64,000 nt of DNA from Geothrix limicola (GTDB lineage Bacteria; Acidobacteriota; Holophagae; Holophagales; Holophagaceae): NCBI RefSeq assembly GCF_030268085.1, contig NZ_BSDE01000001.1, positions 620,001 through 684,000 of the forward strand. The letters are read 5' to 3'. The translations under genes were made by a program, and so were the position numbers. Positions 1 through 48,690 of this stretch are shown in pieces (position 1 is the stretch's first letter; every line of letters begins with the position of its first letter). The notes under the pieces are model-generated. The model was not told the origin of the DNA, made no database searches, and saw nothing but the letters and a program-made list of their open reading frames with translations.

Positions 1-897
1 ATCGTTGGAGAGGATGACTTCCATGTCAGCGGCCTCGGCCTCACGCAGCGGCGCCGCGTAGGCGGCCAGCTCTTCGGGATTGGGCCTCGGGGCCGTGGGG
101 AAGGTGCCGTCCTGCACGCCCTGACTGGGGCTCACGGTCAGGGGCAGGCCCGCCTGCTCGAAGAGGGTGGGGACGAAGGCGATGCCCGTGCCGTGGAAGG
201 GCGTGTAAAGGATCCGGGCCGGCGTGAAGGCCTTGGGATGCTGCAGCAGATCCTGGCCGAGGGCGAGGTAGGCCTTCTCGATGGCGGCAGGGATCGGCTT
301 GATGCGCTCCGCGGGCGCGGTGGGCGGCACGGGCACGACGGGCAGCGCCGCCATGTGGGCCTCGATCTCGGCATCCCAGGGATCGACCACCTGGCCGCCA
401 AGGTCGTTGTAGGCCTTGAAGCCGTTGTATTCCTTCGGATTGTGGCTGGCGGTGATGATCACGCCGCAGGCGGATCCCAGCGCCTTCATCGCAAAGCAGA
501 GGAAGGGCGTGGGCAGGGGGCGCGTGCCGAGGAACACCTCGTAGCCCGCGGCGGCCAGCACGGCGGCGCTTTCCTTGGCGAAGACCTCCGAATTGATGCG
601 CGTGTCGTAGCCCACCACGGCGATCTTCTTGGCAGGCGCGTGGGCCTTGGCCACGGCCGCCAGGGCCATGGTGGTGCGGCGCACGTTGGGCTGGTTCATC
701 CGGCGCAGGCCGGCGGCCATGAAGCCGCGCAGGCCACCGGTGCCGAAGGCGAGGGGCTCGAAGAAGCGGTCTTCCAGCTCCGCGACGGCCTTGGCATCAC
801 CGGCCTCAGCCGCCTTCACCAGGGGCTCCAGCTCCGCCCGCAGCTCGGCTTCGAGGTGGGCGTGGGAGAGATACTGTTTCGCTGCATTCAGGGACAT
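1..897 (-). CDS. Phospho-sugar mutase (phosphoglucomutase/phosphomannomutase), C-terminus cut by window edge
   Basis: This is the N-terminal 299 codons of an alpha-D-phosphohexomutase; the frame runs off the left edge without a stop. Near residue 50 is the FGTGGLRG segment typical of the long PgcA-like branch. The phosphoserine loop TASHNPKEYNGFK follows, whose serine carries the phosphate moved between sugar C1 and C6. The start ATG at 897 gives MSLNAAKQYL and matches family N-termini. The enzyme would interconvert glucose-1-P/glucose-6-P or the mannose equivalents for envelope sugars; the specificity loop is not enough to choose. It is separated from the TldE gene upstream by about 75 bases. 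Confidence 0.88.
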   Translation of the reverse strand, partial: MSLNAAKQYLSHAHLEAELRAELEPLVKAAEAGDAKAVAELEDRFFEPLAFGTGGLRGFMAAGLRRMNQPNVRRTTMALAAVAKAHAPAKKIAVVGYDTRINSEVFAKESAAVLAAAGYEVFLGTRPLPTPFLCFAMKALGSACGVIITASHNPKEYNGFKAYNDLGGQVVDPWDAEIEAHMAALPVVPVPPTAPAERIKPIPAAIEKAYLALGQDLLQHPKAFTPARILYTPFHGTGIAFVPTLFEQAGLPLTVSPSQGVQDGTFPTAPRPNPEELAAYAAPLREAEAADMEVILSND

Positions 898-971
898 GAC
901 GGCCTCGTAAAGACAGAACGTATCGTGGGGAGGATGTGCCTAGGGTCAAGCACCGGGGTCAAGCACTCGGG

Positions 972-2357: not shown

Positions 2358-2358
2358 G

Positions 2359-4443
2359 TCAGATCACGCTCGGCAGGGGTTCGGCGGTGCCGCCGACCAC
2401 GAGGGCGGGGCAGAGGATGGTGGGAAGGGCGTCGCTGACGGGCACGCCCTGGCCGTCCTTGCCGCAGGTGCCGATGTCGAAGTGGTGAAGGTCGTTACCG
2501 ATGCGGGTGAGGCCCTTCAGCACCTCAGGCCCACAGCCGCTGAGGGTGGCGTTCTTCACCGGGTACTGGGCCACGCCGTTCTCCACCCAGTAGCCTTCGG
2601 TCACCTGGAACACGAAGTTGCCGGTGACCGTGTCGACCTGTCCGCCGCCCATGTGCTTCACGAGCAGGCCGCGGTCGAGGTCACGCAGGATGGCTTCGGG
2701 GGCCTCGCTGCCGGCGGCCAGGAAGGTGTTGCGCATGCGCGGGATGGGCAGGTGGCGGTAGCTTTCGCGACGGCCGTTGCCGGTGGGTTCGGTCTCCATC
2801 TTCCGCGAGGTCTTCCGCGACTGCAGGTAGGCCTTCAGCACGCCGTTCTCGATGAGCACCACGCGGCTCACGGGATTGCCCTCGTCGTCGATGGCCTGGC
2901 TGCCGCGCTTGTGGGGCAGGGTACCGTCGTCGATGATCGTGACGCCTTCGCCGGCCACCTTCTGGCCGAGCTTGCCCGCGAAGGCGCTCATGCCAGCCAG
3001 GGCGAGATCGGCCTCGAGTCCATGCCCGCAGGCCTCGTGGATCATGGTGCCGCCGGCGCTGCTGCTGAGCACGACGGGGAAGGTGCCCGCCGGGGCGGGC
3101 TGCGCGTCGAGGGCCTGGATGGCCAGGCGCACGGCCTCCTGGACCATCTTCGTGACGGCCTCATCGGTGAACAGCTCGAAGCCGCGCGTCTCGCCCAGGG
3201 GCTGGTAACCGGTTTGCAACTGGACGCCGTCACCTGCGGTCACGTTGGCGCGCAGCACCACCTGGGTGCGGTGATCCTCGGTGATGCGGCTCGTCCAGGT
3301 GTCTTTCTTCAGCTCGGCCGAGGCGATCCAGACGCGCTGGGTGCTGTCGCCGTAGCCCACGGAAACCTGCTTCAGGGCGCCGGGACGGAGGGTCTCGGCG
3401 TAGGTGCGGGCGAGGCCTTCGGCGCGGCGCACGAGGGCCACCTTGTCACCGAGGGGCACCTGACCCGGATCCTGGGTCACGGGGCTGGGCGTCGGGAAGC
3501 TCTGGGGCGTGAGCGCAGGCACGGCAGCGGCAGAGCCGTGTCCCGGCGCGGCCAGGGTCCTGGCGGATTCCATGAGTTCTTCATGGCTGGGGGCGATGAG
3601 GTCTGCGAAGCGCGTGGTCTCGCCGTCCACCAGTCGGAGGCTGACGCCGAAGGTTTCGGAGGCAAGCACGTCCTCCATGCGGCCATCGTCCATGCCCAGG
3701 GCATGGGCCCGGCGCCGCTCGACGAAAACCTCGCCGTAGTCCCCGCCGCGGCTCAGCAGGTCGGTCAGAACATCGCGCAGCTGGTCTGCGCTGAAGGGTG
3801 CGGGCATCGTTGGTCTCCACGTCCGCGCGCGGCGGATCTTCCAGTTTGCCAGAAGGGCGGCCTGGGCCTCCCCCAGGATTCCGGACAGGTCCCTCCCATC
3901 GTTCCAAATCACCAGGTCGGCGTGGAGCGCCCGCTCGGGTGCCGTCGCCTGGGCGCGCAGGCGCGCCAGAGCGCCCTCGCGCGTCATCCCGTCGCGGGCC
4001 ATGAGGCGCCCGACGCGCAGCTCTTCGGGGGCGTCCACCGCCCAGAAGGCGTCGAAATGATGGGTCTTCCCCCGCTCCACCCACAGGGCCGCGTCGAGAA
4101 CCACCCCGAGGGTATCCGCCGGAAGGGCCCGGAGGCGGGCGTCCCGCAGTGCCTCGATGCGCGGGTGGAGGATGGCGTTGAGTCGCGCCCGCGCCCCATC
4201 ATCCGAGAACACCCGGCCGGCCATCCAGGTGCGGTCGAGAGTGCCGTCCGGGCGCAGGGCCTCAGGGCCGAAGGCTTCCGCCACCTTCCGCAACCCCTCG
4301 CTGCCCGGCGCCACGGCCTCACGGGCCAGCGCATCCGCGTCGATGACGACCCAGCCGAGTTTCTGCAGTTGCGCCGCGACGAAACTCTTCCCCGCCGCGA
4401 TGCCGCCGCTGAGGCCAAGGATGGGGAAGGGGGTGGAATGCAT
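2359..4443 (-). CDS. coaE-tldD: Dephospho-CoA kinase (CoaE) continuous in frame with TldD metalloprotease
   Basis: One uninterrupted frame encodes two full-length proteins. Residues 1-212 are CoaE, with the P-loop GLSGGIAAGKS at 10-20 and the DADALARE and LHPRIEALRD segments; CoaE makes CoA from dephospho-CoA with ATP. Residues 213-694 are TldD (482 residues, as in E. coli), with the zinc-protease motif HEACGH near 469-474. I chose ATG 4443 because AGGA precedes it; the in-frame ATG at 4467 has no ribosome site. No stop lies between the halves, but an internal ATG at 3807 has its own ribosome site. The locus may therefore make a fusion, a separate TldD, or both. The assignment of both halves is secure; the fusion itself is inference. 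Confidence 0.88.
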   Translation of the reverse strand: MHSTPFPILGLSGGIAAGKSFVAAQLQKLGWVVIDADALAREAVAPGSEGLRKVAEAFGPEALRPDGTLDRTWMAGRVFSDDGARARLNAILHPRIEALRDARLRALPADTLGVVLDAALWVERGKTHHFDAFWAVDAPEELRVGRLMARDGMTREGALARLRAQATAPERALHADLVIWNDGRDLSGILGEAQAALLANWKIRRARTWRPTMPAPFSADQLRDVLTDLLSRGGDYGEVFVERRRAHALGMDDGRMEDVLASETFGVSLRLVDGETTRFADLIAPSHEELMESARTLAAPGHGSAAAVPALTPQSFPTPSPVTQDPGQVPLGDKVALVRRAEGLARTYAETLRPGALKQVSVGYGDSTQRVWIASAELKKDTWTSRITEDHRTQVVLRANVTAGDGVQLQTGYQPLGETRGFELFTDEAVTKMVQEAVRLAIQALDAQPAPAGTFPVVLSSSAGGTMIHEACGHGLEADLALAGMSAFAGKLGQKVAGEGVTIIDDGTLPHKRGSQAIDDEGNPVSRVVLIENGVLKAYLQSRKTSRKMETEPTGNGRRESYRHLPIPRMRNTFLAAGSEAPEAILRDLDRGLLVKHMGGGQVDTVTGNFVFQVTEGYWVENGVAQYPVKNATLSGCGPEVLKGLTRIGNDLHHFDIGTCGKDGQGVPVSDALPTILCPALVVGGTAEPLPSVI
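3808..3820 (-). promoter_or_regulatory. Internal ribosome binding site for TldD inside the coaE-tldD frame
   Basis: On the minus strand GGAGA lies six bases before an in-frame ATG at 3807. Starting there gives a 482-residue TldD beginning MPAPFSADQL, the normal length of the family. This site is what makes a separately translated TldD plausible although no stop codon separates it from CoaE. Confidence 0.5.
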
Positions 4444-38819: not shown

Positions 38820-38895
38820 GCCAACTTAGCTCAGCTGGTAGAGCAGCTGATTCGTAATCAGCAGGTCGCAGGTTCGAATCCTGTAGTTGGCTCCA
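38820..38895 (+). tRNA. tRNA-Thr (anticodon CGT)
   Basis: A complete 76-base cloverleaf: acceptor GCCAACT/AGTTGGC, D arm with AGCTCAGCTGGTAGAGC, anticodon stem GCTGA/TCAGC around loop TTCGTAA (anticodon CGT, reading ACG), T arm GGTTCGAATCC and an encoded CCA end. Its 3' half is repeated at 48249-48293, marking it as the integration site of the element downstream. Confidence 0.95.
38851..38895 (+). repeat. attL: Left attachment site copy (inside tRNA-Thr)
   Basis: The 45 bases from the anticodon loop (TTCGTAATCAG) to the CCA end are identical to 48249-48293. Flanking bases on both sides differ, so this is the crossover core. Here it belongs to the intact tRNA gene. Confidence 0.9.
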
Positions 38896-38900
38896 CACTT

Positions 38901-38920
38901 AGGCCCCTTCCGAGGGGCCT
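38901..38920 (+). terminator. Hairpin terminator just after tRNA-Thr
   Basis: Perfect 8-bp stem AGGCCCCT / AGGGGCCT with loop TCCG, followed by TCGCTTT. Being inside the element, it would replace the host terminator now moved to the right-hand junction at 48301. Confidence 0.6.
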
Positions 38921-39003
38921 TCGCTTTGCTCGATAAACATCCCATGCGTTCTCAGGTTGGCTGGAGGCCTTGACGTAAAGTGGCCCCATGAAGATCAAGC
39001 AGC

Positions 39004-39477
39004 TCATCCCCGACGACCGAACCCGGTCCAAGGTTCTAGCCCTGGCAGAGGTACAGCACCTGCCAGTGCGACAGGACGGCCCTTGGGCTGTCTTCGAAGC
39101 AGTGAACGAATCGGAGCGGGTGCTGGAGGTATTGCAGGCCGCAGGGGTGCCTGTGCCGGCACTAGGGGCGGCTCCAATGCCCAGAGACGCCTCCGCTCGA
39201 AGTTCCAAGCCCACTCGAAAGCGTTCATAGCCTGGTACGGATCTTCACCGAAGGATTCCGGCATCGGATAGACAAGTTGGTGAAGGAACCCACCGCCGAA
39301 TTTGTAGGGCGTTGGGTATGGGTAGGGATGGTGGAGCCAGATCCAGCGGTCTCCGTCTACCCCCAGGGCAGTTGAGCCGATGTGGAACCCCAAATGAAGC
39401 TTCTGGCCCGCACACACCTTCTTCACTAGCTCAAAGTCGCTTGGATCGAACGAGTCAGTTTGGAATGGGTGGCGCAT
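39004..39477 (-). CDS. Hypothetical protein at the left end of the element
   Basis: A 157-residue protein of unknown family. The N-terminal two thirds are rich in aromatic residues (GDRWIWLHHPYPYPTPYKFGGGF, region about 43-65), then a Pro/Arg-rich stretch. The last residues include ALAGAVPLPGLEPWTGFGR, which recurs at 48387-48569 with nearly all base changes synonymous, so this reading frame has been under protein-level selection. GAGG five bases before ATG 39477 supports the start. It is the last of three co-directional genes after the SRAP gene. A plus-strand frame over the same bases was rejected. Confidence 0.55.
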   Translation of the reverse strand: MRHPFQTDSFDPSDFELVKKVCAGQKLHLGFHIGSTALGVDGDRWIWLHHPYPYPTPYKFGGGFLHQLVYPMPESFGEDPYQAMNAFEWAWNFERRRLWALEPPLVPAQAPLRPAIPPAPAPIRSLLRRQPKGRPVALAGAVPLPGLEPWTGFGRRG

Positions 39478-39540
39478 TGATGCCTCGGGGCACCAAGCAT
39501 AGGCCTCTCGAATCGACAGGGAATGGCTACTCCAGTTCGA

Positions 39541-40185
39541 TTAGGCAATGGGGAGGATTAGCTCCGGCCCCTGCGCCTTCACATTCCCCACTGCCGAACT
39601 CACCTCATATGCCTCGATCCATTCGTCAGGACAGGGGCCCAGCAGGGCCTGGAGGTCCGCCTGCGATGTGTTGGGGTCCAGCCACGCCTCGGCGGCCTCT
39701 GGTGAAAGTATCGCCGGCATGGACTTGGGGTGGAGCTCCTCCATGATCTTGTTCGGAAAGGTGGTGATGACGGCGCAAACGTCCTCCCCTTCGTGGCGCA
39801 GCCCCAGGCCCGCGAAGAGAAAGTGATGCCCCTCGGCAGGGTGGATGAACATGGCGCGCTTGCGGCCCGCGATCACCGGCCATTCGTAGAAGCCAGTGGC
39901 CGGCACCACCAGGCGCCCGTCCTTGAATGGCCCGCGCCAGGTCTTCAACTCATGCAGGGTTTCCGCCCGAGCATTGATGAGGGGTCGCTTGCTCCATCCA
40001 GGTTGGAAGCCCCACATGCGTTCCGTGACCGTCCATTCCTCACCTGGCTCGATGACTGGGACCTTCTGCCCCGGACTTACATTCCAGCGATCCATGAACT
40101 CCTTGATGAGTTCTTTCATGGGGCGGCCTGGGAAGGCCTCCCGCAGCATCCGTTTTATCGCCGCAGATACCATGCGTCCGCACAT
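39541..40185 (-). CDS. SOS response-associated peptidase (SRAP; HMCES/YedK family)
   Basis: The 214-residue protein starts MCGRM; after removal of Met, Cys2 forms the thiazolidine crosslink to abasic sites in single-stranded DNA. Other family residues are present: NARAET, the VPATGFYEW glutamate block and the histidine in the LHPKSMPAIL block. SRAP proteins shield abasic sites at replication forks and are frequent on mobile elements. The start lies two bases after the stop of the small gene upstream, implying one operon. Here it may protect the element's own replication. Confidence 0.92.
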   Translation of the reverse strand: MCGRMVSAAIKRMLREAFPGRPMKELIKEFMDRWNVSPGQKVPVIEPGEEWTVTERMWGFQPGWSKRPLINARAETLHELKTWRGPFKDGRLVVPATGFYEWPVIAGRKRAMFIHPAEGHHFLFAGLGLRHEGEDVCAVITTFPNKIMEELHPKSMPAILSPEAAEAWLDPNTSQADLQALLGPCPDEWIEAYEVSSAVGNVKAQGPELILPIA

Positions 40186-40187
40186 AG

Positions 40188-40385
40188 TTATTCTCTGAGA
40201 AAGTCAGCAGGGTCGCCCATGTCGAACCCGGCGTCATTGGTGAAGTAACGCCTGTCACGGAGGCGAACAGTGGGATTCGCTTCGTAAGTTGCGAAGAGCA
40301 GACTTGAGCATCCCTCCACCACTTCACGGGAGGCTTCTATGGTGTGGTCATCGGGCGCTTTGATCAGAAAAGTCAGCACTTTCAA
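40188..40385 (-). CDS. Small hypothetical protein co-translated with SRAP
   Basis: A 65-residue protein (MKVLTFLIKAPDDHTIEASREVVEGC at the start) of unknown family. It uses TTG 40385, placed four to five bases after a near-perfect AAGGAGG, which makes translation likely despite the rare start. The TAA stop is two bases from the SRAP ATG. The end of the protein is acidic (FDMGDPADFLRE). It may be a partner or regulator of SRAP. Confidence 0.6.
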   Translation of the reverse strand: MKVLTFLIKAPDDHTIEASREVVEGCSSLLFATYEANPTVRLRDRRYFTNDAGFDMGDPADFLRE

Positions 40386-40490
40386 TGTGCCTCCTTATGG
40401 TTTGAATCTCCGGTTTACCTGTAAGTGTTTATTTAACATGTGTTGCCGCAAGCCTGAAATACTGTGAGCAAATTAATTAAGGAGGCAATT

Positions 40491-40805
40491 ATGAGCATTA
40501 CTCGAAAACTATCTGATTTCATTTCTGACTGTGAAAAGTTTGGTTATAAGCCAAGCGACACGAGCAACGCTGGGCTACGGTCAATGCATGGGTTGTTCAA
40601 GCTTTGGGAAACCGCAGCATCTGAAAATGACGGGGTGGTTGCCATGGCGTGGGGGCGGTATTCAGACCAAGTGGTAATGGCCTACTGCGAATCAATTGGT
40701 TGCCAGAAAATGACATCGAAAGCGCTTGAATTGATGGAAATCGCGAGTCACGTCTGGGGTGCTTGGAATCACCAGGCGCAGGTGAAATCCGATCGGGAGG
40801 CCTGA
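40491..40805 (+). CDS. Hypothetical protein of the element
   Basis: A 104-residue protein (start MSITRKLSDFISDCEKFGYKPSD) of no recognised family, predicted mostly helical. A perfect AAGGAGG stands five bases before ATG 40491. The coding sequence and the region upstream are more AT-rich than the host, as expected of acquired DNA. It is divergent from the SRAP operon; the shared gap 40386-40490 probably holds both promoters, though I see no clear consensus. The next gene starts three bases after its stop. Confidence 0.65.
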   Translation: MSITRKLSDFISDCEKFGYKPSDTSNAGLRSMHGLFKLWETAASENDGVVAMAWGRYSDQVVMAYCESIGCQKMTSKALELMEIASHVWGAWNHQAQVKSDREA

Positions 40806-40807
40806 GG

Positions 40808-41149
40808 ATGCGAAATCATTACGTTGGTCAGAAAATCGAACGGACTGATGGACATTGGGTTTTGATCGAATCTCTTGGGCCTGGGCGCTGGCTTGCGGAA
40901 CGATTCGACCAGGTGACCCAAGAAATATCCGAATGGGAGGAGTCCGGATGGGTGTCTCCCGTTTGTGTCCCTCCACCAACAACTGTCTGCAAAACCTGCG
41001 ACGGGAAGGGTGCAGTGATGTTGATGCCCTTGGCCCACATTAGTGATTGCCCTGATTGCGTGAAAAATGGTAACTGCCCGCGATGTGGGAAACCAACTAT
41101 GACTGATAGGTTCGTGACGAAATGTAATGAGTGCGGGTTTCACGGCTGA
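40808..41149 (+). CDS. Zinc-ribbon protein with DnaJ-like cysteine motifs
   Basis: A 113-residue protein with a winged N-terminal part (about 1-55: GQKIERTDGHWVLIESLGPG) and a Cys-rich C-terminal half. It has CKTCDGKG, CPDC, CPRCGKP and CNECGFHG, i.e. two zinc ribbons, the first resembling the CxxCxGxG repeats of DnaJ. GGGAGG precedes ATG 40808. It follows the previous gene with a gap of two bases. A nucleic-acid or protein-binding role is plausible; the family is not recognised. Confidence 0.65.
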   Translation: MRNHYVGQKIERTDGHWVLIESLGPGRWLAERFDQVTQEISEWEESGWVSPVCVPPPTTVCKTCDGKGAVMLMPLAHISDCPDCVKNGNCPRCGKPTMTDRFVTKCNECGFHG

Positions 41150-41151
41150 TC

Positions 41152-41247
41152 ATGGGAAGCATGATGCCCGAAATCCTCAATGACGGTGCAGAAGCGGTTG
41201 CATTCTCGCCTCAGGGCAAGCAGGAGGTGAGGTTAGATCTCTGCTGA
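41152..41247 (+). CDS. Possible 31-residue peptide
   Basis: A short frame starting MGSMMPEILNDGAEAVAF directly after the zinc-ribbon gene (two-base gap) and ending in Cys. There is no clear ribosome site, so expression would rely on coupling. It is listed as a possible gene only. Confidence 0.2.
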   Translation: MGSMMPEILNDGAEAVAFSPQGKQEVRLDLC

Positions 41248-41277
41248 ATTCTGGGTGCAGGTGGGAGAACTACTGGC

Positions 41278-41807
41278 TCATGCCAGCATCCCGCCCGGCC
41301 GCTTCTGCTTCACGGCCCAGTCATTCATGACTGGCTCAAACATCTTCACGAGGTCCCGACTGGCTGCGCCGGCGTTGTCCGCGCTCACTGTGGCGCCACC
41401 CGTGTTGCTCACGTGGACGACAATCGGGGCCGAGATCTGCGTTTGCATGGACGCGGCCGGCGCTGAGAGCCCACCACTCCAGAAGGGATTGGAGCCGGCT
41501 GCCGATGCGGCCGGGGCAGGGGAACCGCAGTGTCTCGCAGAAGGGTGGCGGAATCACGCCAGAGCCCCCGTTGCTCCGCGATTGCATCCCAGAGAAGTCG
41601 TGCCTGGGCCCCCAAAGCGTCGAGTTCGGGGGCTGTATGCAGGGGCTCAATTGCCGTGGTCTTCCATGCCAAGGTTCGGCTGCTATCCGTATTGATGGCA
41701 GCGATCTTGGAAATCCGAGCCGTGTTCAGCGTCTCCATCCTGTCCGCGAAGGCAACCATCTGCCCAAGCATTTCCTTGAGACGGTCCATCGGTAACTTTA
41801 CGATCAT
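41278..41807 (-). pseudogene. Frameshifted phage-type protein ending like a tail tape-measure C-terminus
   Basis: From ATG 41807 (AAGGAGG upstream, overlapping the previous stop) the frame reads MIVKLPMDRLKEMLGQMVAFADRM... to about residue 97. It then degrades into Arg/Pro-rich sequence ending at 41409. In the -1 frame the DNA continues with a good protein: a Pro/Ala linker, NPFWSGG, QISAPIVVHVSNTGG, and a terminal WAVKQKRPGGMLA resembling tape-measure C-termini. One added base at the run of four G (41519-41522 on the plus strand) joins both into about 176 residues. This may be a mutation, a sequencing error or recoding. Tail relation is inference from the end motif. Confidence 0.55.
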
Positions 41808-42169
41808 GAATCCTCCTTGAGTTGTGACTTGAGCAGTGCGTCGAGTTCCTGTAGTTCGGCTTCGTCGGTACGGGCCAGAGTCAAGAACTCCGAACGGATG
41901 GAGTCCAAGCCGCCGGCGATTTCATCTAACAGGGCGTCTTTCTCGGAAATCTCTGAGATCTCTTTCAGCAGGGATTCTTTTGACGTGGCCCTAAACCGGA
42001 TTGCATCCGGGATGAACCGTGAATAGCGAATTTGGAGCGTGAGCGCGCGGGTCCTGATCTCCTGAAACGAATTCTTGAGAATTTGAAGCCGATCCTCCAT
42101 CTCGCCGATTTGCTGAAGCGCAGCCTGCCGCCGCCTTTTCTTCGCGCGTAATCGGTCGAGTTCATTCAC
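41804..42169 (-). CDS. Hypothetical coiled-coil protein
   Basis: The 121-residue product is almost wholly charged helix (MNELDRLRAKKRRRQAALQQ, then QILKNSFQEIRTRALTLQIRY and ISEISEKDALLDEIAGGLDSIRSEF regions), predicting a long coiled coil. No family is recognised. Its stop overlaps the ATG of the tape-measure-like gene (ATGA), so both are expressed together and may interact. GGAGG is 11 bases before the ATG. Confidence 0.55.
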   Translation of the reverse strand: MNELDRLRAKKRRRQAALQQIGEMEDRLQILKNSFQEIRTRALTLQIRYSRFIPDAIRFRATSKESLLKEISEISEKDALLDEIAGGLDSIRSEFLTLARTDEAELQELDALLKSQLKEDS

Positions 42170-42218
42170 GGCGCAGCCTCCACAGCCAAGGATGAGGCGC
42201 CGTTGTCGCGTTGGTGGC

Positions 42219-42539
42219 TCAAGGGGCGACAGTATTTTTAGTTGCTCGGCGTCGGAGTTTGATGCGATTGACGGTGGATCTGTGGAGATTCACTCTCGTG
42301 GCAATCTCGGCTTCAGGAACCCCAATCCCAAGAAGTTCTATTACCCGCTTGTGGCGTTCCTCTCGCGTTTCTGGGGAAAGCGGAGTCGTGGGTGGGGGTG
42401 GAACTCGATGGCCTGCCAAGCACTCACGACTCACGGCGTAGGCCAGGTTCGCGAGCACGATAGCCAGGTCTTCGTTGTTCGGCATAGATACCCTGAACGC
42501 TTCTCGAAGTCGCGTCAGCCATTCATCCATTGAGTTCAT
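42219..42539 (-). CDS. HTH DNA-binding protein of the element
   Basis: A 106-residue protein with an N-terminal helical part (MDEWLTRLREAFRVSMPNNEDLAIVLANLA) and a C-terminal helix-turn-helix. The latter spans about residues 60-100 (RHKRVIELLGIGVPEAEIATRVNLHRSTVNRIKLRRR), like sigma-70 region 4 or homeodomain-like resolvase tails. ATG 42539 overlaps the antirepressor stop (ATGA), with AAAGGTG upstream. It could be a late-gene activator or repressor of the element. Confidence 0.6.
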   Translation of the reverse strand: MNSMDEWLTRLREAFRVSMPNNEDLAIVLANLAYAVSRECLAGHRVPPPPTTPLSPETREERHKRVIELLGIGVPEAEIATRVNLHRSTVNRIKLRRRATKNTVAP

Positions 42540-42979
42540 GCCGCACCTTTGCGGCCTGAATGAGGGTGAGATGTGTAACCCATGGACCAATACTTGCATT
42601 CCCCCGCATGGAGCCAGCGATTGAGATGCTTGGATGTCTGTTTGCCAGTCGCGCGGCGCTCACACTCGATGAAATAGAGGCGGGCCTGTTTGCCTTTGGC
42701 TGTTCGCTGAACCATCGCCAATTCCTTGGCCATGGAAATGGAGGTCATGTATTCCTTAGCGGGGCGACCACCCTTGGGGTTTTCCCCGTTTTCGGTGAAA
42801 ACCTCGAAGTCCTGGCCCTCAATGAAACTGAATGCTTCAACGTGATCTTTGATCCAAGTAGTGAAGTCTTTGCCCACTTCCAGGAATGCATGGAGGTCCC
42901 TACCTGAAACGGCGTTGACCTCCGAACCGCCAAGCTGGGCCTTCTGGATCGGGATCAATTTGGACGACGCGCGCCTCAT
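42536..42979 (-). CDS. AntA/AntB-type phage antirepressor
   Basis: The 147-residue protein has the AntA/AntB signature VSGRDLHAFLEVGKDFTTWIKDHVEAFSF (about 27-55) followed by FIEGQDFEVF and YMTSISMAKELAMVQRT. These proteins bind a phage repressor and lift repression. GGGGAGG five bases before ATG 42979 fixes the start, overlapping the DnaC-like stop (ATGA). It sits in the replication block, so derepression and replication are expressed together. A separate KilA-type C-terminal domain is absent. Confidence 0.85.
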   Translation of the reverse strand: MRRASSKLIPIQKAQLGGSEVNAVSGRDLHAFLEVGKDFTTWIKDHVEAFSFIEGQDFEVFTENGENPKGGRPAKEYMTSISMAKELAMVQRTAKGKQARLYFIECERRATGKQTSKHLNRWLHAGECKYWSMGYTSHPHSGRKGAA

Positions 42980-43725
42980 GCGGGCCTCCCCGGAAGATTG
43001 AACGGCTTCAAGCCTGTGACCCATGAAAGAGGGTTAGGCTCGATCAGCCGGCGAACCGTGGCGGCACCGTACAGCCGCACCAGGTCAACCTGGGAGACGT
43101 TCGTGGTCCAGATCGTGGGGAGCTCCGCCCGGTAGCGTGAGTTGATGATGTGATCGAGCTGGGAGGCCCCCCAGTCTTCCGTATAGCTGCCTTTGAGGCG
43201 CTCCCGTCCCAGGTCATCCAGGACCAAGAGATGAGCCATCGCCAATCGTTCCACGCGCTCCTCTGCCCCATTCACGGCATTGGACCGAAGCCAATGGACC
43301 TCATCGGGCCAGCTGGACCACACGACTCGCGGGAAGTCCTTCCGGCTGTCCCATTGCCCCTGGATGCTAGGCACGATCACACGCTCGGACCAGTGGGTGA
43401 GACCTTCGGTCAGGAGGGCCGCGATGGCCTGGGTCTTTCCAATCCCGGTCCCGCCTCCAATCCCGAATCCAACCTCCAGGTGCCCGGCCCGGAATCTGCC
43501 TGGGATTGCCTCGAGGATGAGCCCAGGGATCCGTTCCCGTTCGGCACGGGCCTCCCGGCGCTGGAGCCCGCGGCCATCGTCCCAGAGGAGGTCTAGGATT
43601 CGCCGGGAGCGTTCGGCCCGGAATTGGGCAATCGCATCCAGACGTTCCGATTCCTTGCGGCACTTCCAGCATTCGCCATCGAGGATAGCGTCTTGGTGTT
43701 CGGGAGTCCGGCAGAGTTCAGGCAC
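42976..43725 (-). CDS. DnaC-like helicase loader ATPase
   Basis: The 249-residue AAA+ protein has Walker A GGGTGIGKTQA, Walker B AHLLVLDDLG, a sensor-1-like TIWTTNVS and the arginine-finger region of DnaC/IstB loaders. A Cys-rich N-terminus (CRTPEHQDAILDGECWKC) may bind zinc. The start GTG 43725 has GGAG seven bases upstream and overlaps the end of the O-like gene. It would load the host replicative helicase onto the element's origin, acting with the O-like initiator, as phage P/DnaC proteins do. Confidence 0.85.
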   Translation of the reverse strand: MPELCRTPEHQDAILDGECWKCRKESERLDAIAQFRAERSRRILDLLWDDGRGLQRREARAERERIPGLILEAIPGRFRAGHLEVGFGIGGGTGIGKTQAIAALLTEGLTHWSERVIVPSIQGQWDSRKDFPRVVWSSWPDEVHWLRSNAVNGAEERVERLAMAHLLVLDDLGRERLKGSYTEDWGASQLDHIINSRYRAELPTIWTTNVSQVDLVRLYGAATVRRLIEPNPLSWVTGLKPFNLPGRPA

Positions 43726-44665
43726 CGATTTGCTCCCTCTCCAGCAATGCCGCGTATTCCTCGTCGGACTCACGGCGGTGAGAAGGGGCCATCCCTGCCG
43801 AAGGTGCGTCGGGGTTTAGGTATCCCTGACCATCCAGCCATTTCTGGAGCTGTGGCATGAACTGTGGCCCTGAGAGGGAGTCCCTGAGATTCTGTGCCTT
43901 GGCCAGGATGGAATGAGGTGGAATGGTCATCATGGCATTTACGAATGCCTGTGCAGTCTGAGTCGGAGCTGGATTCTTAGCCGCTCCGAAGATTCCGACT
44001 AGCTTCCAATAGGCCAAATCATCCGGCGACCCTTTGGGGCCAAGGATGGCCTCTAGCTTTGGGATGGGTTTCGGTTGCCGTTCCGCTTTCGGTTTCGGAC
44101 CTTGCCGGGTGAGTGGTTCCAACCTAGGTACATCTTCTTCCTGGCTTGGGCCTTCTTTTCCTTCTTTTCCTTCTTTGTCCGTTGCTGACAACCTGCCCGC
44201 AACCTCTGTGCAAGTTGCCAGCAACCTGCCTGCAAGTTGCAGCCAAGGGTAAAGGCCACGTTCGATCTCGGGAGACTCAAAGGCCGTGTCTCCTGGCTTG
44301 CGCCACCTAACCTCTTTCACCTTCACCTGGAAGTCAGGGTCATCGGATGGGCGTGGGAATATGGGTTTCTCCCCTGGGTGGGGATCCTGGTGCTTGTGCC
44401 AGTTCACTACGAAGCCGAACCGCTTCCCTCCGACCGTGTAGGACCGAATGAATCCGTCATGCTCTAGGCGGGCCAGGGCCTCCCCAGCGTCGAAGTCATC
44501 TCGAGGGAGACCCTTCATAGCCAGGGCCTCTGGATCCCACTGGAAGGCTCCATCGAAGTCCGCATGCGTCCAGATCACCTGGAACATCAGCCGCGTGAGG
44601 GCAGGGCATTTTGACAGCAGGGGATTGGACCAGAAACCAGGCTGGAGGAATCGGCGTCGGGCCAT
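43718..44665 (-). CDS. Phage O-like replication initiator
   Basis: The 315-residue protein has a winged-helix N-terminal region (about 10-120: FWSNPLLSKCPALTRLMFQVIWTHADFDGAF, LARLEHDGFIRSYTVGGKRFG, NWHKHQDPHPGEKP), typical of phage replication proteins of the O/DnaT type. A charged linker (DKEGKEGKEG, residues about 165) and a C-terminal helical part follow. The gene contains iteron-like repeats and a purine/pyrimidine-biased tract at 44151-44240, as in lambda O. GGGAGG precedes ATG 44665. With the DnaC-like neighbour it forms an autonomous replication module. Confidence 0.75.
   Translation of the reverse strand: MARRRFLQPGFWSNPLLSKCPALTRLMFQVIWTHADFDGAFQWDPEALAMKGLPRDDFDAGEALARLEHDGFIRSYTVGGKRFGFVVNWHKHQDPHPGEKPIFPRPSDDPDFQVKVKEVRWRKPGDTAFESPEIERGLYPWLQLAGRLLATCTEVAGRLSATDKEGKEGKEGPSQEEDVPRLEPLTRQGPKPKAERQPKPIPKLEAILGPKGSPDDLAYWKLVGIFGAAKNPAPTQTAQAFVNAMMTIPPHSILAKAQNLRDSLSGPQFMPQLQKWLDGQGYLNPDAPSAGMAPSHRRESDEEYAALLEREQIGA
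44151..44240. repeat. Putative replication origin: iteron-like repeats and a 9-bp tandem repeat inside the O-like gene
   Basis: Three tandem 9-mers (CCTTCTTTT, CCTTCTTTT, CCTTCTTTG) at 44151-44177 form a strand-biased tract. Next come two 20-bp units, GCAACCTCTGTGCAAGTTGC (44199-44218) and GCAACCTGCCTGCAAGTTGC (44221-44240), each with a GCAAC/GTTGC dyad, and a partial third CAACCTGCC at 44189. Iterons beside an easily melted tract within an initiator gene match the lambda origin layout. Activity is untested. Confidence 0.5.
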
Positions 44666-44698
44666 TAGACGGCCCTCCCTTGGGCCTGGAAGGACCTA

Positions 44699-45118
44699 TT
44701 AGGCCTCGTGTGGAGCATGGCCCGCCTCCGCATCGTCAACCTGGGCCCGGAGCTCCGGCATGACCTTTCGCGCCTCGGCAAATACGGATTCATCGGTCAG
44801 CAGCTCACCTCGGAGGGCCAGGCGGTAGGCACCCAATGAGCAGGCCAATTCGATGATTCGGAAAGCCGCTGAATTTGGGTTCTGCACTCCCTTGGCATTG
44901 GGGTTCGCCTTGGCCCGAACCCTGGCCACATACGAGCCGAAGAGGTAACACACTTCATTCGGTGTGGCATTCGGGGCCATCAGTGGCGCGAACCGTTCTT
45001 CCATCCGAGGCATGGAGGGGAGTGGGGCCTTGGTTTGTAGAACCTTCAGAACGTTGGAATGGATCGTGACACTGGCGCTGGCCTTCTTCTTTCGCGGGAT
45101 CCAACGGAAGGTACTCAT
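44699..45118 (-). CDS. Hypothetical protein of the element
   Basis: A 139-residue protein (start MSTFRWIPRKKKASASVTIHS) with a basic N-terminus and a helical middle (NEVCYLFGSYVARVRAKANP, AFRIIELACSLGAYRLALRGELL). No family is recognised. The ATG overlaps the stop of the preceding small gene (ATGA). It lies just upstream of the O-like gene and may belong to replication control. Confidence 0.55.
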   Translation of the reverse strand: MSTFRWIPRKKKASASVTIHSNVLKVLQTKAPLPSMPRMEERFAPLMAPNATPNEVCYLFGSYVARVRAKANPNAKGVQNPNSAAFRIIELACSLGAYRLALRGELLTDESVFAEARKVMPELRAQVDDAEAGHAPHEA

Positions 45119-45360
45119 ACTCCGAATCCGTATCCACCGGGGCAGGGGGCACCTTCCTCAGGTGAAGTCGGCATCGTCCTCCGGAGGGCGTCACGCCACT
45201 CCCAGGGGACGCCGGCCGCCTCAAGAGCCTCGTGCTCCGCTGCCAAGAAGTCCAGGTCCTGCGGTCTTGAGCATGGGATGTTCACCGTGACTGATGCTGG
45301 ATTCGCAGATCCGCATGAGTCCTCAGCCCCCATTAAGTGGGATGCGTGATCGGTTCTCAT
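45115..45360 (-). CDS. Small hypothetical protein of the element
   Basis: An 81-residue protein (start MRTDHASHLMGAEDSCGSAN) with an acidic helical part (DLDFLAAEHEALEAAG) and a Gly/Pro-rich end. No family is recognised. GAGG lies seven bases before ATG 45360, and start/stop overlap with the next gene shows it belongs to the same operon. Confidence 0.5.
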   Translation of the reverse strand: MRTDHASHLMGAEDSCGSANPASVTVNIPCSRPQDLDFLAAEHEALEAAGVPWEWRDALRRTMPTSPEEGAPCPGGYGFGV

Positions 45361-45369
45361 CGGGTCGCC

Positions 45370-45573
45370 TCAACTCGCCTTGCGAAGGAGCAGGGACTCA
45401 TACCAGGAGTCCCCATCTTCCACGGCGATCAGGGTCGCTCGTCCTGCTTTCCTGGCAGGGAGCCGACCCGCCTTGATCTCTTCAAAAACCCGCGTTCGGC
45501 TAACGCTGTATCGGATACAGAAGTCAGCGATTCTCAGCGCTACTCTCTGGGGTTCTGGGTGTGCAGTCTTCAC
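45370..45573 (-). CDS. Small HTH protein, possible excisionase or AlpA-like regulator
   Basis: The 67-residue protein has one MerR/excisionase-type winged helix: LRIADFCIRYSVSRTRVFEEIKAGRLPARKAGRATLIAVED (about residues 13-53). Phage Xis and satellite AlpA proteins have this size and fold. GTG 45573 is eight bases after AAAAGGAGT. It heads the leftward block that includes the replication genes, so it may both assist excision and activate transcription. It is not adjacent to the integrase. Confidence 0.65.
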   Translation of the reverse strand: MKTAHPEPQRVALRIADFCIRYSVSRTRVFEEIKAGRLPARKAGRATLIAVEDGDSWYESLLLRKAS

Positions 45574-45655
45574 GATTGGACTCCTTTTGGTTCGGCGGTT
45601 TTCCGCTGTATCAAAAGGGTCGTGCTAGGACTATCAACTGTCAGGACCAGTCAAT

Positions 45656-46339
45656 TCAGGAATTCGGGTTGGTTTTCTGGTCCTCAACCCACTTTTTGAT
45701 GTTTGTTGTTAGTTGATCCATAGATATTAATTCAATTGTCTTTAGTGGCTCGTCCTCATCCTTCAACTCCTTTACCCAGGCCTCAGCGTGTGAACCCCAG
45801 GCGCGTAAGGTGGTCATGTCGTCCCCACCAGCCTCGATCCAGACCCACCTAGCCAGATTGGCAACCGGCCCGTTCTGGTGCATTCCGTGACGTTTGCCGA
45901 GTGATTTTAGGGTCTCATAAACGTATAACACGCAACCTCTTTTACCTTCCTCCTCTGGGCGGCCTGCTTTGCGGAGTGGCAGAGGCCCATGGGCTGCAAT
46001 CTCGGACGCCAACCAGTCTTCATCCTTTTTAATCAGACCAGCGACACCAAGGTTGACCGTTTCGATCGAAGCCTTCCAACCTTTTGCCTTCTCTGAATCG
46101 TTAAAAATTCTGTGGTCGGGCAAGGATTCAAGTAGCAGCGCTACTGCATCCAGATGTTCTTTGACGAGGCGGAGTTTGGGGATAATGCGTGGGCCTTCTG
46201 TGTCTAGATAATTGAGGTCTTCAACTGTCTCAATCACCTCTCTTAGCGCGGCCTCGATCTTGGCAACCTCTTCATCATCGACCGGCTTTGGGTTGATCCA
46301 TTGCAGCCAAACCGGATCTGAATGATTACTTGAATCCAC
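45656..46339 (-). CDS. Hypothetical protein of the element
   Basis: A 227-residue protein of unknown family, acidic and mainly helical (VAKIEAALREVIETVEDLNYLDTEG, RLVKEHLDAVALLLESLPDH, and a RGCVLYVYETLKSLGKRHG block). GTG 46339 was taken as start after a G-rich stretch; GTG 46363 is possible. The region upstream holds a multi-branched inverted repeat (46369-46421). It lies between the excisionase-like gene and the small gene next to the integrase, a place often held by repressors, but it shows no clear DNA-binding motif. Confidence 0.55.
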   Translation of the reverse strand: MDSSNHSDPVWLQWINPKPVDDEEVAKIEAALREVIETVEDLNYLDTEGPRIIPKLRLVKEHLDAVALLLESLPDHRIFNDSEKAKGWKASIETVNLGVAGLIKKDEDWLASEIAAHGPLPLRKAGRPEEEGKRGCVLYVYETLKSLGKRHGMHQNGPVANLARWVWIEAGGDDMTTLRAWGSHAEAWVKELKDEDEPLKTIELISMDQLTTNIKKWVEDQKTNPNS

Positions 46340-46368
46340 AACGCACCCCCACCGATGCCCCACAAAGG

Positions 46369-46421
46369 AGGCGCGGCAGCTGGTGTGGGACCAGCGTTCG
46401 GGAGCTACCCTAGCCGCGCCT
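46369..46421. other. Branched inverted-repeat structure (three-way-junction-like)
   Basis: A 9-bp outer stem AGGCGCGGC / GCCGCGCCT encloses a 6-bp hairpin (GCTGGT-GTGGG-ACCAGC) and a short GGG-AGCTA-CCC hairpin, fitting a 53-base three-way junction. It lies between the 46431-46754 gene and the 45656-46339 gene. It could be a terminator, a leader structure or a small RNA; no T-run follows on the minus strand. Confidence 0.35.
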
Positions 46422-46423
46422 GT

Positions 46424-46448
46424 CTTAAGCTTAGCTTCGAAGCTTAAG
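46424..46448. repeat. Inverted repeat at the stop of the 46431-46754 gene
   Basis: Perfect 9-bp arms CTTAAGCTT / AAGCTTAAG with a seven-base loop, overlapping the TAA stop. Together with the adjacent branched structure it may end transcription of this gene or protect the message. Confidence 0.4.
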
Positions 46449-46754
46449 CAGAGCAGTTAACGTATCAATGGCAATCTGGGCTTCTCTCTTGGCCTTTGCT
46501 CGAACGAGAGGCGATGGGTGCATCGTGAGCATGGCAACATCGTGTATTACTCCATCACATTCACGTTTCAGGCCGCTCAGCTTAATTGCAGGCTGGGCCA
46601 TTCTCCGCTTCATTTTTAATTCGAACTTTTTGTAGGATGGCTCCTTTTCGGTTTCGGTCATAAAGATTTTCAGCCCGTATTCAGAGGGGGTGAGGTTTGG
46701 TTTCCTCACCTTTAATTCATCAAATGTCGGGATGACATTTCCATTGGTGCTCAT
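46431..46754 (-). CDS. Hypothetical protein beside the integrase
   Basis: A 107-residue basic, helical protein (start MSTNGNVIPTFDELKVRKPN; later KKFELKMKRRMAQPAIKLSG and KAKREAQIAIDTLTALL). No family is recognised. ATG 46754 follows GGGGGTACC, a weak ribosome site. It lies 47 bases after the integrase stop on the same strand and is AT-richer than host genes. Confidence 0.55.
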   Translation of the reverse strand: MSTNGNVIPTFDELKVRKPNLTPSEYGLKIFMTETEKEPSYKKFELKMKRRMAQPAIKLSGLKRECDGVIHDVAMLTMHPSPLVRAKAKREAQIAIDTLTALLKLRS

Positions 46755-46801
46755 GGTACCCCCAGCAAATTGCAGGGCGTTGCCCTGCGGGTGTGATTGG
46801 T

Positions 46802-48112
46802 TCAGCCCAGAGATGCTGCGATCTTGGCGCTGATCTGTTCGGAGGCCTGGAGGCGGGGATCCGTATCCAGGTGGGCATAACGGTTTGTTACAGATGGCTG
46901 AGAATGACCAAGCAACGACCCAACCATAGGCAAACTCATGCCTTCTGTGACTCCCACAGAGGCAAAGGTGTGGCGTAGATCGTGGATTCGGACGTCCAGG
47001 CATTTAGCGGCGGTCCTAATGCGATCCCAGGGCTTCTGGAGATTGACCAGGTGCTCCCCGTGCTTGTGCCCCTGGATGACGTATCGGCCCTTGAGTTCAC
47101 GAGTGGGCAATTTCTCCAGGTCTTGGAGGATGGATAGGACAGCTGCGTTCAAGGGCAATTCCTTGGCGCCCTTCTTCCCGCTGGTCTTGTGCTTCTCGAT
47201 TCGGATAACCCCCCTGACTTTGTCCACCTGTGACCATTCCAGGCCAAGAATTTCATTCAGGCGGGCTCCGGTCAGCATCAGGAGCTTGATTGCTGCGATC
47301 TCATAGGGGACCGTCTTCAGCGGGTGCTTTTCGGCCGCGTTGGCTGCCAGGGTCTTCCGCATGACTTTGCCCAGGCTCTCCAGTTCTTTAGGGGTCAAGA
47401 AGCGTTCCTTCCCCTTGGCCTCCGCCTGCTTTTCGATAAGTTGGCAGGGATTTGTGTGCTGAGTCCTCAATCCCTTTCGCTCGGATTCACTGAAGAGCTT
47501 AGATAGGGCGGCCTGGAATCGGTTTGCTGCGGCGGGAGTCGGCTTCGACGGCTTCTCGCCCTTCTTTATGCCTGGACGCCACCCCGTGGCCACCTTGTCC
47601 ACTAAAGCAGACACCTGGAAGCGTTCTACCTCATTGATACGGAAGTCCCCCAGCTCCGGCACGGCTAACTCATCAAGGTAGAATTTCGTCCCTTTGTAGG
47701 AGGAGGGGCGCAGCTTCTTCTTCTGTGCCTCCAGATGGGTCTTCACGAATTCCCGGAAGGTTGGAATGTCCAGGGCCTTCTTCTTCTCGATGCGGGGATC
47801 CTTCCCGTTGGCGATCTGGGTTCTGTACTCCCCGGCCAGCTTTCGAGCGCTAAGGAGTGAGAGGTTCTCCCCTTCAGCATCCACAACACCAGGGATGTAG
47901 GGCCCAAGAGGCATCCAGGCCTGCTTCCCGTGGGTATCGATGAACTTGAGGCAGAAGGTTTTCGTTCCCAGGGCGGTAATGCGCAGCCCGAAGCCTCGGA
48001 TGGCCGAATCCCACTCATAGGTCATGACCGGCTCGCCCGTCTTTGGGTGCTTCTTCACCTTCGCCCGCTGGCAGCGCGTGTCTGTAAGTTGCTTTATGGA
48101 CACCCTGGGCAT
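46802..48112 (-). CDS. int: Tyrosine recombinase integrase (P4/phage type)
   Basis: The 436-residue integrase has an N-terminal arm-binding DUF4102-like domain (SAIRGFGLRITALGTKTFCLKF), a core-binding domain (about 110-220) and a catalytic domain. Catalytic residues are visible: Arg in LTGARLNEILGL, Lys in EKHKTSGKKG, HxxR in HDLRHTFASVG, His in LGHSQPSVTNRYAH and the Tyr in the same block. It recombines the tRNA-Thr site. ATG 48112 has GGGAG six bases upstream. The gene points inward from the right repeat and has its own promoter. Confidence 0.94.
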   Translation of the reverse strand: MPRVSIKQLTDTRCQRAKVKKHPKTGEPVMTYEWDSAIRGFGLRITALGTKTFCLKFIDTHGKQAWMPLGPYIPGVVDAEGENLSLLSARKLAGEYRTQIANGKDPRIEKKKALDIPTFREFVKTHLEAQKKKLRPSSYKGTKFYLDELAVPELGDFRINEVERFQVSALVDKVATGWRPGIKKGEKPSKPTPAAANRFQAALSKLFSESERKGLRTQHTNPCQLIEKQAEAKGKERFLTPKELESLGKVMRKTLAANAAEKHPLKTVPYEIAAIKLLMLTGARLNEILGLEWSQVDKVRGVIRIEKHKTSGKKGAKELPLNAAVLSILQDLEKLPTRELKGRYVIQGHKHGEHLVNLQKPWDRIRTAAKCLDVRIHDLRHTFASVGVTEGMSLPMVGSLLGHSQPSVTNRYAHLDTDPRLQASEQISAKIAASLG

Positions 48113-48181
48113 TGTTTCTCCCGTTGTCCTACCAATATACATCCGGGCTTAGATCCATCAAGTCCCAATTCGTTCTATCAG

Positions 48182-48209
48182 ATTATAACTCAAACAAAAT
48201 CAATCTGAA
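48182..48209 (-). promoter_or_regulatory. Predicted integrase promoter
   Basis: A consensus TATAAT (minus strand, 48187-48182) lies 16 bases downstream of TTCAGA in an AT-rich gap between the right repeat and int. About 70 bases separate it from the int ATG. Confidence 0.5.
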
Positions 48210-48248
48210 TGTGTTCCAATCAGTTCCACAAAGTCATAGACCATCTTT

Positions 48249-48293
48249 TTCGTAATCAGCAGGTCGCAGGTTCGAATCCTGTAGTTGGCTCCA
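48249..48293 (+). repeat. attR: Right attachment site copy
   Basis: 45 bases identical to 38851-38895 (3' part of tRNA-Thr from the anticodon loop to CCA). The 5' half of the tRNA is missing, so this is the integration scar, next to the integrase. The tRNA's original terminator follows at 48301. Confidence 0.9.
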
Positions 48294-48300
48294 GTGAGGT

Positions 48301-48332
48301 ACCCCCGGAGACTTTGAGTCGACGGGGGTTTT
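48301..48332 (+). terminator. Terminator downstream of the right attachment site
   Basis: Stem ACCCCCG / CGGGGGT with an inner GACT/AGTC pairing, followed by TTTTCCTTTT. It sits eight bases after the CCA of attR and was probably the original terminator of tRNA-Thr. Confidence 0.8.
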
Positions 48333-48386
48333 CCTTTTGTCTGAGCGGCTGGTCGAAGAAAGTCCCTGCCCCTGCCGGATTGGATG

Positions 48387-48569
48387 TCAACGAAGACGGC
48401 CGAAACCAGTCCATGGTTCGAGGCCGGGCAGGGGGACGGCGCCAGCCAGGGCAGCGAGGTGATTTGCGGGGTGGACGCCGGGTCGCCGACGGTCTGCCGG
48501 GAGCTCCCCGGTTGCGGGAGGCTGCTGAGTCGGGGGTGTCTGCATGGGTGTGATTTCGAGGGGTCGCAT
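48387..48569 (-). CDS. Short frame sharing a conserved C-terminal peptide with the element's left-end gene
   Basis: A 60-residue frame starting MRPLEITPMQTPPTQQPPATG. Its last part, ALAGAVPLPGLEPWTGFGR, is identical in protein sequence to the end of the 39004-39477 product. The DNA differs almost only at third codon positions, so it derives from a real gene. The rest is Pro-rich with no ribosome site, so it may be a remnant or a small gene. The stretch 48294-48690 otherwise holds only the tRNA terminator; I see nothing else in it. Confidence 0.35.
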   Translation of the reverse strand: MRPLEITPMQTPPTQQPPATGELPADRRRPGVHPANHLAALAGAVPLPGLEPWTGFGRLR

Positions 48570-48690
48570 GGAGCCAACTTAGGCCGGTCGATTGGACATT
48601 TTCTGGCGAATTCGAAGATTCTTTTGGGGCATTCGCTGATGGTTGACATTCGCTTTTAATTCGCCATTCTGGATAACCCAGGAGGCACCC

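Follow-up and report, generated by a model that had tools for sequence, protein, structure and literature searches.

According to our analysis, the 64,000-nucleotide stretch of the Geothrix limicola genome considered here (contig NZ_BSDE01000001.1, positions 620,001 to 684,000 of the forward strand; hereafter the window, in which all coordinates are counted) contains an element integrated at a tRNA-Thr(CGT) gene which is predicted to be a phage satellite from a Geothrix lineage equipped with its own tail tape-measure protein (TMP), the copy in the window having kept only the last part of the TMP gene. We assign this reading a probability of about 0.62, judging from sequence comparisons. The element shows the general marks of a satellite, being integrated, bounded and provided with its own integrase while holding no complete set of head and tail genes of named families, and the TMP gene is intact in its closest relative. 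The comparison set comprised 47 genomes, namely that of the window's host (4.2 Mb) and 46 others. The features on which the argument turns are the following.

38820-38895, plus strand: tRNA-Thr (CGT), the integration target and the only tRNA found by ARAGORN; its 3' 45 bp (38851-38895) form the left attachment site, attL
41278-41553, minus strand: remnant of a TMP gene, C-terminal 91 codons, with no start codon at its upstream end
48249-48293, plus strand: attR, which repeats the 3' 45 bp of the tRNA without a mismatch

The tape-measure remnant and the closest related element

The TMP remnant matches phrog_24 with an E-value of 0.0031 (model positions 989-1051 of 1151), and its sole match among 50,697 phage records is an Acinetobacter phage TMP at E 1e-3; a scan of IMG/VR with the remnant returned no relative. 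Among the 46 other genomes it matches in one, that of Geothrix terrae SG184, where the target is a TMP (E 1.5e-5; 2.1e-4 in the reciprocal search). This pair aligns with a Smith-Waterman score of 94; none of 5000 shuffles exceeded 61, and of the 88 frames in the element the runner-up reached 44. Since the remnant frame has no upstream start and overlaps another open reading frame (ORF), the gene is regarded as truncated. A complete TMP gene of the element's own, of which the window copy holds only the 91 C-terminal codons, is present in the elements of G. terrae, of G. oryzisoli SG189 and of a further genome, G029.

The G. terrae element, 12,223 bp long, occupies the same tRNA-Thr and ends in the same 45-bp attachment (att) repeat, and its integrase is 93% identical to that of the window (dN/dS 0.064). 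The preliminary description, made from the window alone, had proposed a search at tRNA-Thr in related genomes; the G. terrae element is partly collinear with that of the window. In a whole-element DNA search of the 47 genomes, only patches match beyond it. The order common to both elements is integrase, int-alpA-like DNA, a helix-turn-helix (HTH) gene, the genes of an 81-aa and a 139-aa protein, helicase loader, TMP, SOS-response-associated peptidase (SRAP) and an ORF at the element's end, so that the G. terrae TMP gene lies between the replication and SRAP genes, at a place matching that of the remnant. This TMP is encoded by a complete frame (553 aa; phrog_24, 2.5e-9), behind which lies the gene of a Neck1/tail-completion protein (phrog_169, 8.5e-46). 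Because only the C-terminal end is found in the window and the gene is intact in G. terrae, the window copy looks like a deletion derivative of a TMP-bearing satellite.

Head and packaging genes were sought with PHROGs profiles in 55 stop-to-stop frames of at least 80 aa from the window element, selected ORFs being followed down to E 1, and in 58 such frames from the G. terrae element, in which the TMP was split at the edge of the scanned DNA. No terminase, portal, capsid or tail tube appears among the best 25 of 36 families in the window, the rest being weaker than E 1.6e-5, nor among the best 25 of 26 families in G. terrae. Neither a primase nor a small terminase subunit (TerS) was recognised in the window element, and no capsid gene of a named family was recognised in the window, G. 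terrae, G. oryzisoli or G029 elements. No tail-assembly chaperone, a kind of gene that is small, was listed in the frames of at least 80 aa of the first two elements or of at least 110 aa of the last two. The earlier claim that the element has no structural genes thus stands for the head and packaging families scanned and has to be amended for the tail, of which the TMP remnant is left.

Two side observations concern these relatives. In the G. terrae genome, four consecutive ORFs of 63-75 aa (locus L017, 1665-2651; G018:C1:246065-247051) share an N-terminal 'M(S)RALxRRLxRLE'-like motif and match one another weakly by BLAST (E 0.003-0.015), like a tandem family. An element in genome G006, in which no TMP was recognised, has a 583-aa protein in the TMP's place (locus L072, 15311-17062); it was considered as an internal virion protein, found no match in PHROGs, Pfam or the phage records, and is the subject of no claim here.

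Elements with TMP, TerS and TerL, and the phages around them

Two further elements with fixed ends lie at tRNA-Met, one in G. oryzisoli (15,681 bp, 51-bp att repeat) and one in G029 (15,807 bp, 48-bp repeat); their integrases are 53% identical to that of the window, and together with the window and G. terrae elements they span 9.4-15.8 kb. Both carry, in this order, genes for a TMP (761 aa in G. oryzisoli, 764 aa in G029), TerS and the large terminase subunit (TerL), with a 96-aa ORF behind the TMP in G029. Whole-element scans at E 0.001 of frames of at least 110 aa (64 in G. oryzisoli, 52 in G029) gave these three as the only named virion families, among all 25 families in the former and the best 25 of 28 in the latter, and the two genomes contain neither a phrog_12 portal nor a putative capsid of the type described below. 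Between the two elements TerS is 78%, TerL 83% and TMP 61.5% identical. The corresponding dN/dS values by the Nei-Gojobori method are 0.15, 0.10 and 0.28, dS exceeding 1 for TMP and TerL; these values suggest that TMP, TerS and TerL are kept under purifying selection. Separately, both elements encode a glycosyltransferase-9-like protein (locus L074, 10097-11416, and L073, 14192-15160; Pfam E 0.001 and 0.0004, both below the cut-off), which is possibly cargo.

TMPs of the G. oryzisoli type occur in seven of the 47 genomes: besides the two elements, in G025, G064, G017, G005 and G065. G025 and G064 have the homologous TMP (762 and 766 aa; 686-930 aa in the other phages) in phage modules that also encode a portal, a prohead protease and a putative capsid. 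The last of these, a 497-aa protein in G025, was tried as a named major capsid, a name which neither phrog_13692 nor Pfam gives it, and it is called a putative capsid only because of its place behind the prohead protease (PF04586, 2.9e-5). In G017, G005 and G065 the TMP sits on contigs whose genes read as those of an ordinary phage tail, the G017 contig running from terminase (Terminase_3, 2.3e-26) through a portal-like protein and a putative capsid to the TMP, which comes last. In IMG/VR, eight loci hold relatives of this TMP, and the seven that were annotated (L095-L101, L102 not included) are all ordinary phage tail modules; the nearest is 63% identical to the G. oryzisoli TMP and of equal length, 761 aa.

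Borders and genes of the window element

The direct repeat around the window element extends over 57 bp at 93% identity, of which 45 bp are perfect (38851-38895 and 48249-48293), and encloses 9,398 bp, in agreement with the boundaries first proposed. ORFs containing 'YRIRTCDLL' at 48200-48649 were taken for antisense translation of the tRNA repeat and discarded. With the left and right flanks joined as the query, 29 other loci hold the left flank, and three of them, L021 (G010), L032 (G066) and L042 (G032), continue into the right flank (86-90% identity over 164-191 bp, the right flank making up 66-92 bp of these). From these alignments we take the three loci to be sites unoccupied by the window element, which is what the suggested check for empty sites in related genomes had aimed at; G032 has a further copy of the att repeat on another contig. 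Nine of the 29, that of G. terrae included, continue for 11-65 bp as the element's own left end does, so the DNA behind the tRNA is more widely shared than the element itself, and the remaining 17 match neither continuation beyond a few bases, five of them having part or none of the tRNA there. A terminator-like stretch at 38896-38930, inside the element and directly behind the interrupted tRNA, may be an end common to several elements or a native terminator. The tRNA-Thr(CGT) gene is, besides, an integration hotspot: islands in G002 (locus L069), G067 (L070) and G020 (L071) end in the same att repeat, located about 12.9, 6.9 and 16.4 kb from the tRNA, respectively. The G002 island reads as a primase-type element with type I restriction-modification-like genes, and the G020 island contains a transposon and two tail genes (phrog_32, phrog_1924); a 58-aa ORF there that resembles the start of a TMP has no family match and was dropped.

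The genes of the window element, listed from the integrase end, are as follows.

46802-48112, minus strand: tyrosine integrase, 436 aa (phrog_1, 4.1e-55; PF00589, 7.4e-23)
46431-46754, minus strand: small ORF, 107 aa, no family (profile scan of 46431-46760)
46358-46420, minus strand: int-alpA RNA, Rfam RF02996 (45.0 bits; gathering score 35.8)
45656-46339, minus strand: 227-aa protein without assigned function
45370-45573, minus strand: Xis/AlpA-like HTH protein, 67 aa, matched weakly by profiles but with homologues in sister elements
45115-45360, minus strand: conserved 81-aa protein, 72% identical over 46 aa to G029 and 56% over 57 aa to G. terrae
44699-45118, minus strand: conserved 139-aa protein, 69% identical to G. 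terrae (dN/dS 0.18, with dS above 1)
43718-44665, minus strand: replication initiator/replisome-organizer-like protein, 315 aa (phrog_16167, 3.9e-22)
44170-44245, minus strand: iteron-like repeats inside the initiator gene, candidate origin of replication
42976-43725, minus strand: DnaC-like helicase loader, 249 aa (phrog_50, 5.9e-17), 62-64% identical to G. terrae and G006 (dN/dS 0.24, with dS above 1)
42536-42979, minus strand: AntA/AntB antirepressor (AntA, PF08346, 3.5e-24), no homologue in the loci compared
42219-42539, minus strand: HTH DNA-binding protein (HTH_23, E 3e-4, below the cut-off; profile scan of 42219-42599)
41804-42169, minus strand: coiled-coil-like protein, 121 aa, no family above the cut-off
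41409-41807, minus strand: 132-aa ORF, no homologue in the loci compared; the TMP remnant overlaps its final third in a different frame
40464-40805 and 40808-41149, plus strand: two small genes without assigned function, the second cysteine-rich
40188-40385, minus strand: 65-aa ORF upstream of SRAP
39541-40185, minus strand: SRAP, 214 aa (PF02586, 5.8e-48)
39004-39477, minus strand: conserved 157-aa ORF at the element's end, 38% identical to G. terrae and 61% to G069
38988-39230, plus strand: 80-aa ORF overlapping the preceding one on the opposite strand, also with homologues

The calls of integrase, initiator, DnaC-like loader, AntA antirepressor and SRAP are firm, in line with the preliminary description; the excisionase/AlpA-like HTH of the same gene set is a weaker call (HTH_17, E 0.0059, 17.3 bits where the cut-off is 27; excisionase phrog_66, E 0.0048). 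The initiator has matches in 90 phage records and, among the ten listed, nine span only the first 31-43% and two are annotated as replisome organizers. The repeats noted earlier inside its gene are borne out by five CAACC/GGTTG-type sites within 85 nt (44188-44240), against at most three in 300 Markov resamples, for a motif that was picked after inspection of the sequence; the cluster could be the origin of replication. IMG/VR scans returned no relative of the integrase and three contigs for the initiator, L013, L014 and L015, the last two compared by BLAST only. L013 has the homologous initiator and loader beside what reads, from its ORFs, as a phage; it also encodes (364-3543) a 1059-aa tail-fibre-like protein with an end that by eye appears Hint/intein-like and that Pfam at E 0.01 does not match.

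The conserved 80-90 nt between integrase and AlpA-like gene were considered as a new RNA, until they proved to be the Rfam int-alpA RNA, which the preliminary description, as with the TMP remnant, had not noted. DNA aligns at this site by BLAST with 95% identity in G006, 96% in G. terrae and 75% in G020, although the covariance model reports no int-alpA RNA in these three; in the genus it reports one in six of the 47 genomes, at seven places, of which five score above the cut-off. The int-alpA-type elements at L076, L077 and L080 read as small primase-type elements in which no TMP was seen by eye, and that at L079 ends at the contig end. Nothing relevant on int-alpA RNA was found in the literature searched.

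A probable satellite lineage that may build chimeric tails

No satellite family tested accommodates the combination of TMP, TerS and TerL, a tyrosine integrase located at a tRNA, and an int-alpA RNA. Phage-inducible chromosomal islands (PICIs) combine primase-type replication with their own TerS or capsid-redirecting genes, and P4-like satellites have a P4-type primase-helicase; in the window, as stated above, neither primase nor TerS was recognised and the AlpA-like HTH is weak. The window element resembles P4-like satellites and the Pseudomonas element AH14b in its integrase, AlpA-like regulator and own replication genes, and differs in having an initiator and a DnaC-like loader rather than a P4-type primase. 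AH14b encodes a Rha-family regulator and tail assembly protein I, and its DNA has been detected inside capsids built from AH14a proteins; it is described without a terminase, and a TMP is not mentioned for it (PMC4936722). Capsid-forming PICIs (cfPICIs) are similar in being satellites with some virion or packaging genes of their own, but they make their own capsid (PMC11389934), a gene that was not recognised in the Geothrix elements.

The nearest parallel is offered by the PICI-like elements (PLEs) PLE1, PLE4 and PLE11 of Vibrio cholerae, which provide their own TMP and use the head and tail tube of a helper phage. For PLE11, tails that combine the satellite's TMP with the helper's head and tube were established by mass spectrometry and western blot, and in three PLEs transfer falls by 96 to about 99.9% when tmp is deleted (Mathur et al. 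2026, PMC12987554). In March 2026 the PLEs were presented as the first satellites that build chimeric tails with their own tape measure, so the strategy itself is already known, and the legend of Extended Data Fig. 10 of the same paper notes putative tmp genes in other satellites, a sampling of cfPICIs included (PMC12987554). The PLEs have a lytic contractile-tailed helper and carry tmp with tac (PLE11 also with bhuB), whereas in the Geothrix elements a TMP of siphophage type is accompanied by Neck1 or by TerS and TerL and, unlike in the PLEs, a tyrosine integrase at a tRNA is paired with the int-alpA RNA. Moreover, the tails made with PLE11 fall short of the phage's own, whereas the G. oryzisoli TMP, at 761 aa, is equal in length to its nearest phage homologues (761, 762 and 766 aa). 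No such elements in Geothrix or Acidobacteriota were among the matches listed in the literature searched.

By analogy with the PLEs, the TMP is probably carried to build chimeric tails. Entry of a helper, or relief of repression, would lead to excision of the element, which would replicate from the repeats inside the initiator gene and be packaged in heads and tail tubes that a helper siphophage provides. Members with an intact TMP gene would supply their own TMP, together with Neck1 or with TerS and TerL depending on the member, and the helper's tube protein would polymerise around the satellite TMP to give chimeric tails, as in PLE11; the window copy would rely on the helper's TMP, perhaps at low efficiency, or be stranded. 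The fuller proposition, that a Geothrix lineage independent of the PLEs captured a siphophage TMP, in two members with TerS and TerL, and forms full-length chimeric tails in helper tubes, the window copy having reverted to the helper's TMP, is a tentative one that we would put somewhat below even odds.

Several points weigh against the reading as a TMP-bearing satellite. The G. terrae element has homologues of only nine of the 19 window proteins compared, and those without one include the initiator, the antirepressor and the ORFs adjoining the TMP remnant; the window copy has neither TerS nor a full TMP, and the single-profile E-values of the remnant are modest. Since neither PHROGs nor Pfam has a name even for the capsid of the G025-type phages, unnamed capsids could slip past the family scans. 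The dN/dS values are approximate, since several dS are above 1, and may in part go back to a period in phages that preceded capture. The elements found with an open TMP number only three, from a search of the 47 genomes that did not extend to other TMP families. Finally, the host genome contains no phrog_2 terminase, phrog_12 portal, G025-type putative capsid or G. oryzisoli-type TMP, other phage families not having been tried; as to the reach of these searches, that for the portal recovered those of G025 and G064, and that for terminase among seven genomes recovered only the two satellite TerLs of G. oryzisoli and G029, and none in G025 and G064.

The main alternative is a reduced prophage, that is, a siphophage at tRNA-Thr which lost its head and tail module and left the end of the TMP, with the G. 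terrae element as an earlier stage of decay. TMP remnant and Neck1 are phage virion genes, the initiator, loader and AntA are of phage type, contig L013 has the homologous initiator and loader beside an apparent phage, and the G020 island at the same tRNA retains its two minor tail genes, all of which this alternative would accommodate. We nevertheless deem it unlikely: at this site, elements in which no head gene was recognised are present in two species and have a strongly constrained integrase, the four elements with fixed ends are all 9.4-15.8 kb, and a simple deletion would not yield the order TMP-TerS-TerL from a phage like that on the G017 contig, where terminase is first and TMP last. 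The preliminary description had itself named capsid or terminase genes in an intact relative as the sign of a deletion derivative. An intact relative at the same att site with capsid, portal or terminase was not found in G. terrae, the sole close relative found among the 46 other genomes and a small sample; the window copy does turn out to be shortened, from a TMP-bearing form. The designation of the element as satellite-like with replication genes is retained, given the G. terrae element without terminase, portal or capsid and the two tRNA-Met elements in which only TMP, TerS and TerL are seen, under selection, and qualified by the TMP remnant which that designation did not foresee.

A satellite with no need of a TMP, P4-like or PICI-like, in which the fragment is incidental phage debris, is improbable. 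The primase-like int-alpA-type elements at L076, L077 and L080 and the G006 element, none with a TMP seen or recognised, speak for it, but the full TMP gene of G. terrae, at the matching place between replication and SRAP genes, speaks against it. An integrative element unrelated to phages and moved otherwise, for example by conjugation, is most improbable of all, since, although no helper phage was found in the host and the loader weakly matches a type IV coupling-protein domain (TrwB_AAD_bind, E 0.0089, 15.4 bits where the cut-off is 20.5), no relaxase family is among the Pfam matches of 19 window ORFs, and antirepressor and loader here and TMP, TerS and TerL in the relatives are phage functions.

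If the fuller proposition above holds, the piracy of tails through replacement of the tape measure has more than one origin and extends to the Acidobacteriota. Elements with TMP, TerS and TerL but without a recognised head gene in a distant phylum provide an outside test of how general the strategy is, and two of the hosts are named isolates that are not known to be pathogenic. Since the G. oryzisoli TMP equals its nearest phage homologues in length, these elements also raise the question whether the satellite gains through tail length or otherwise, for instance in DNA ejection, particle specificity or evasion of tail-targeting defence.

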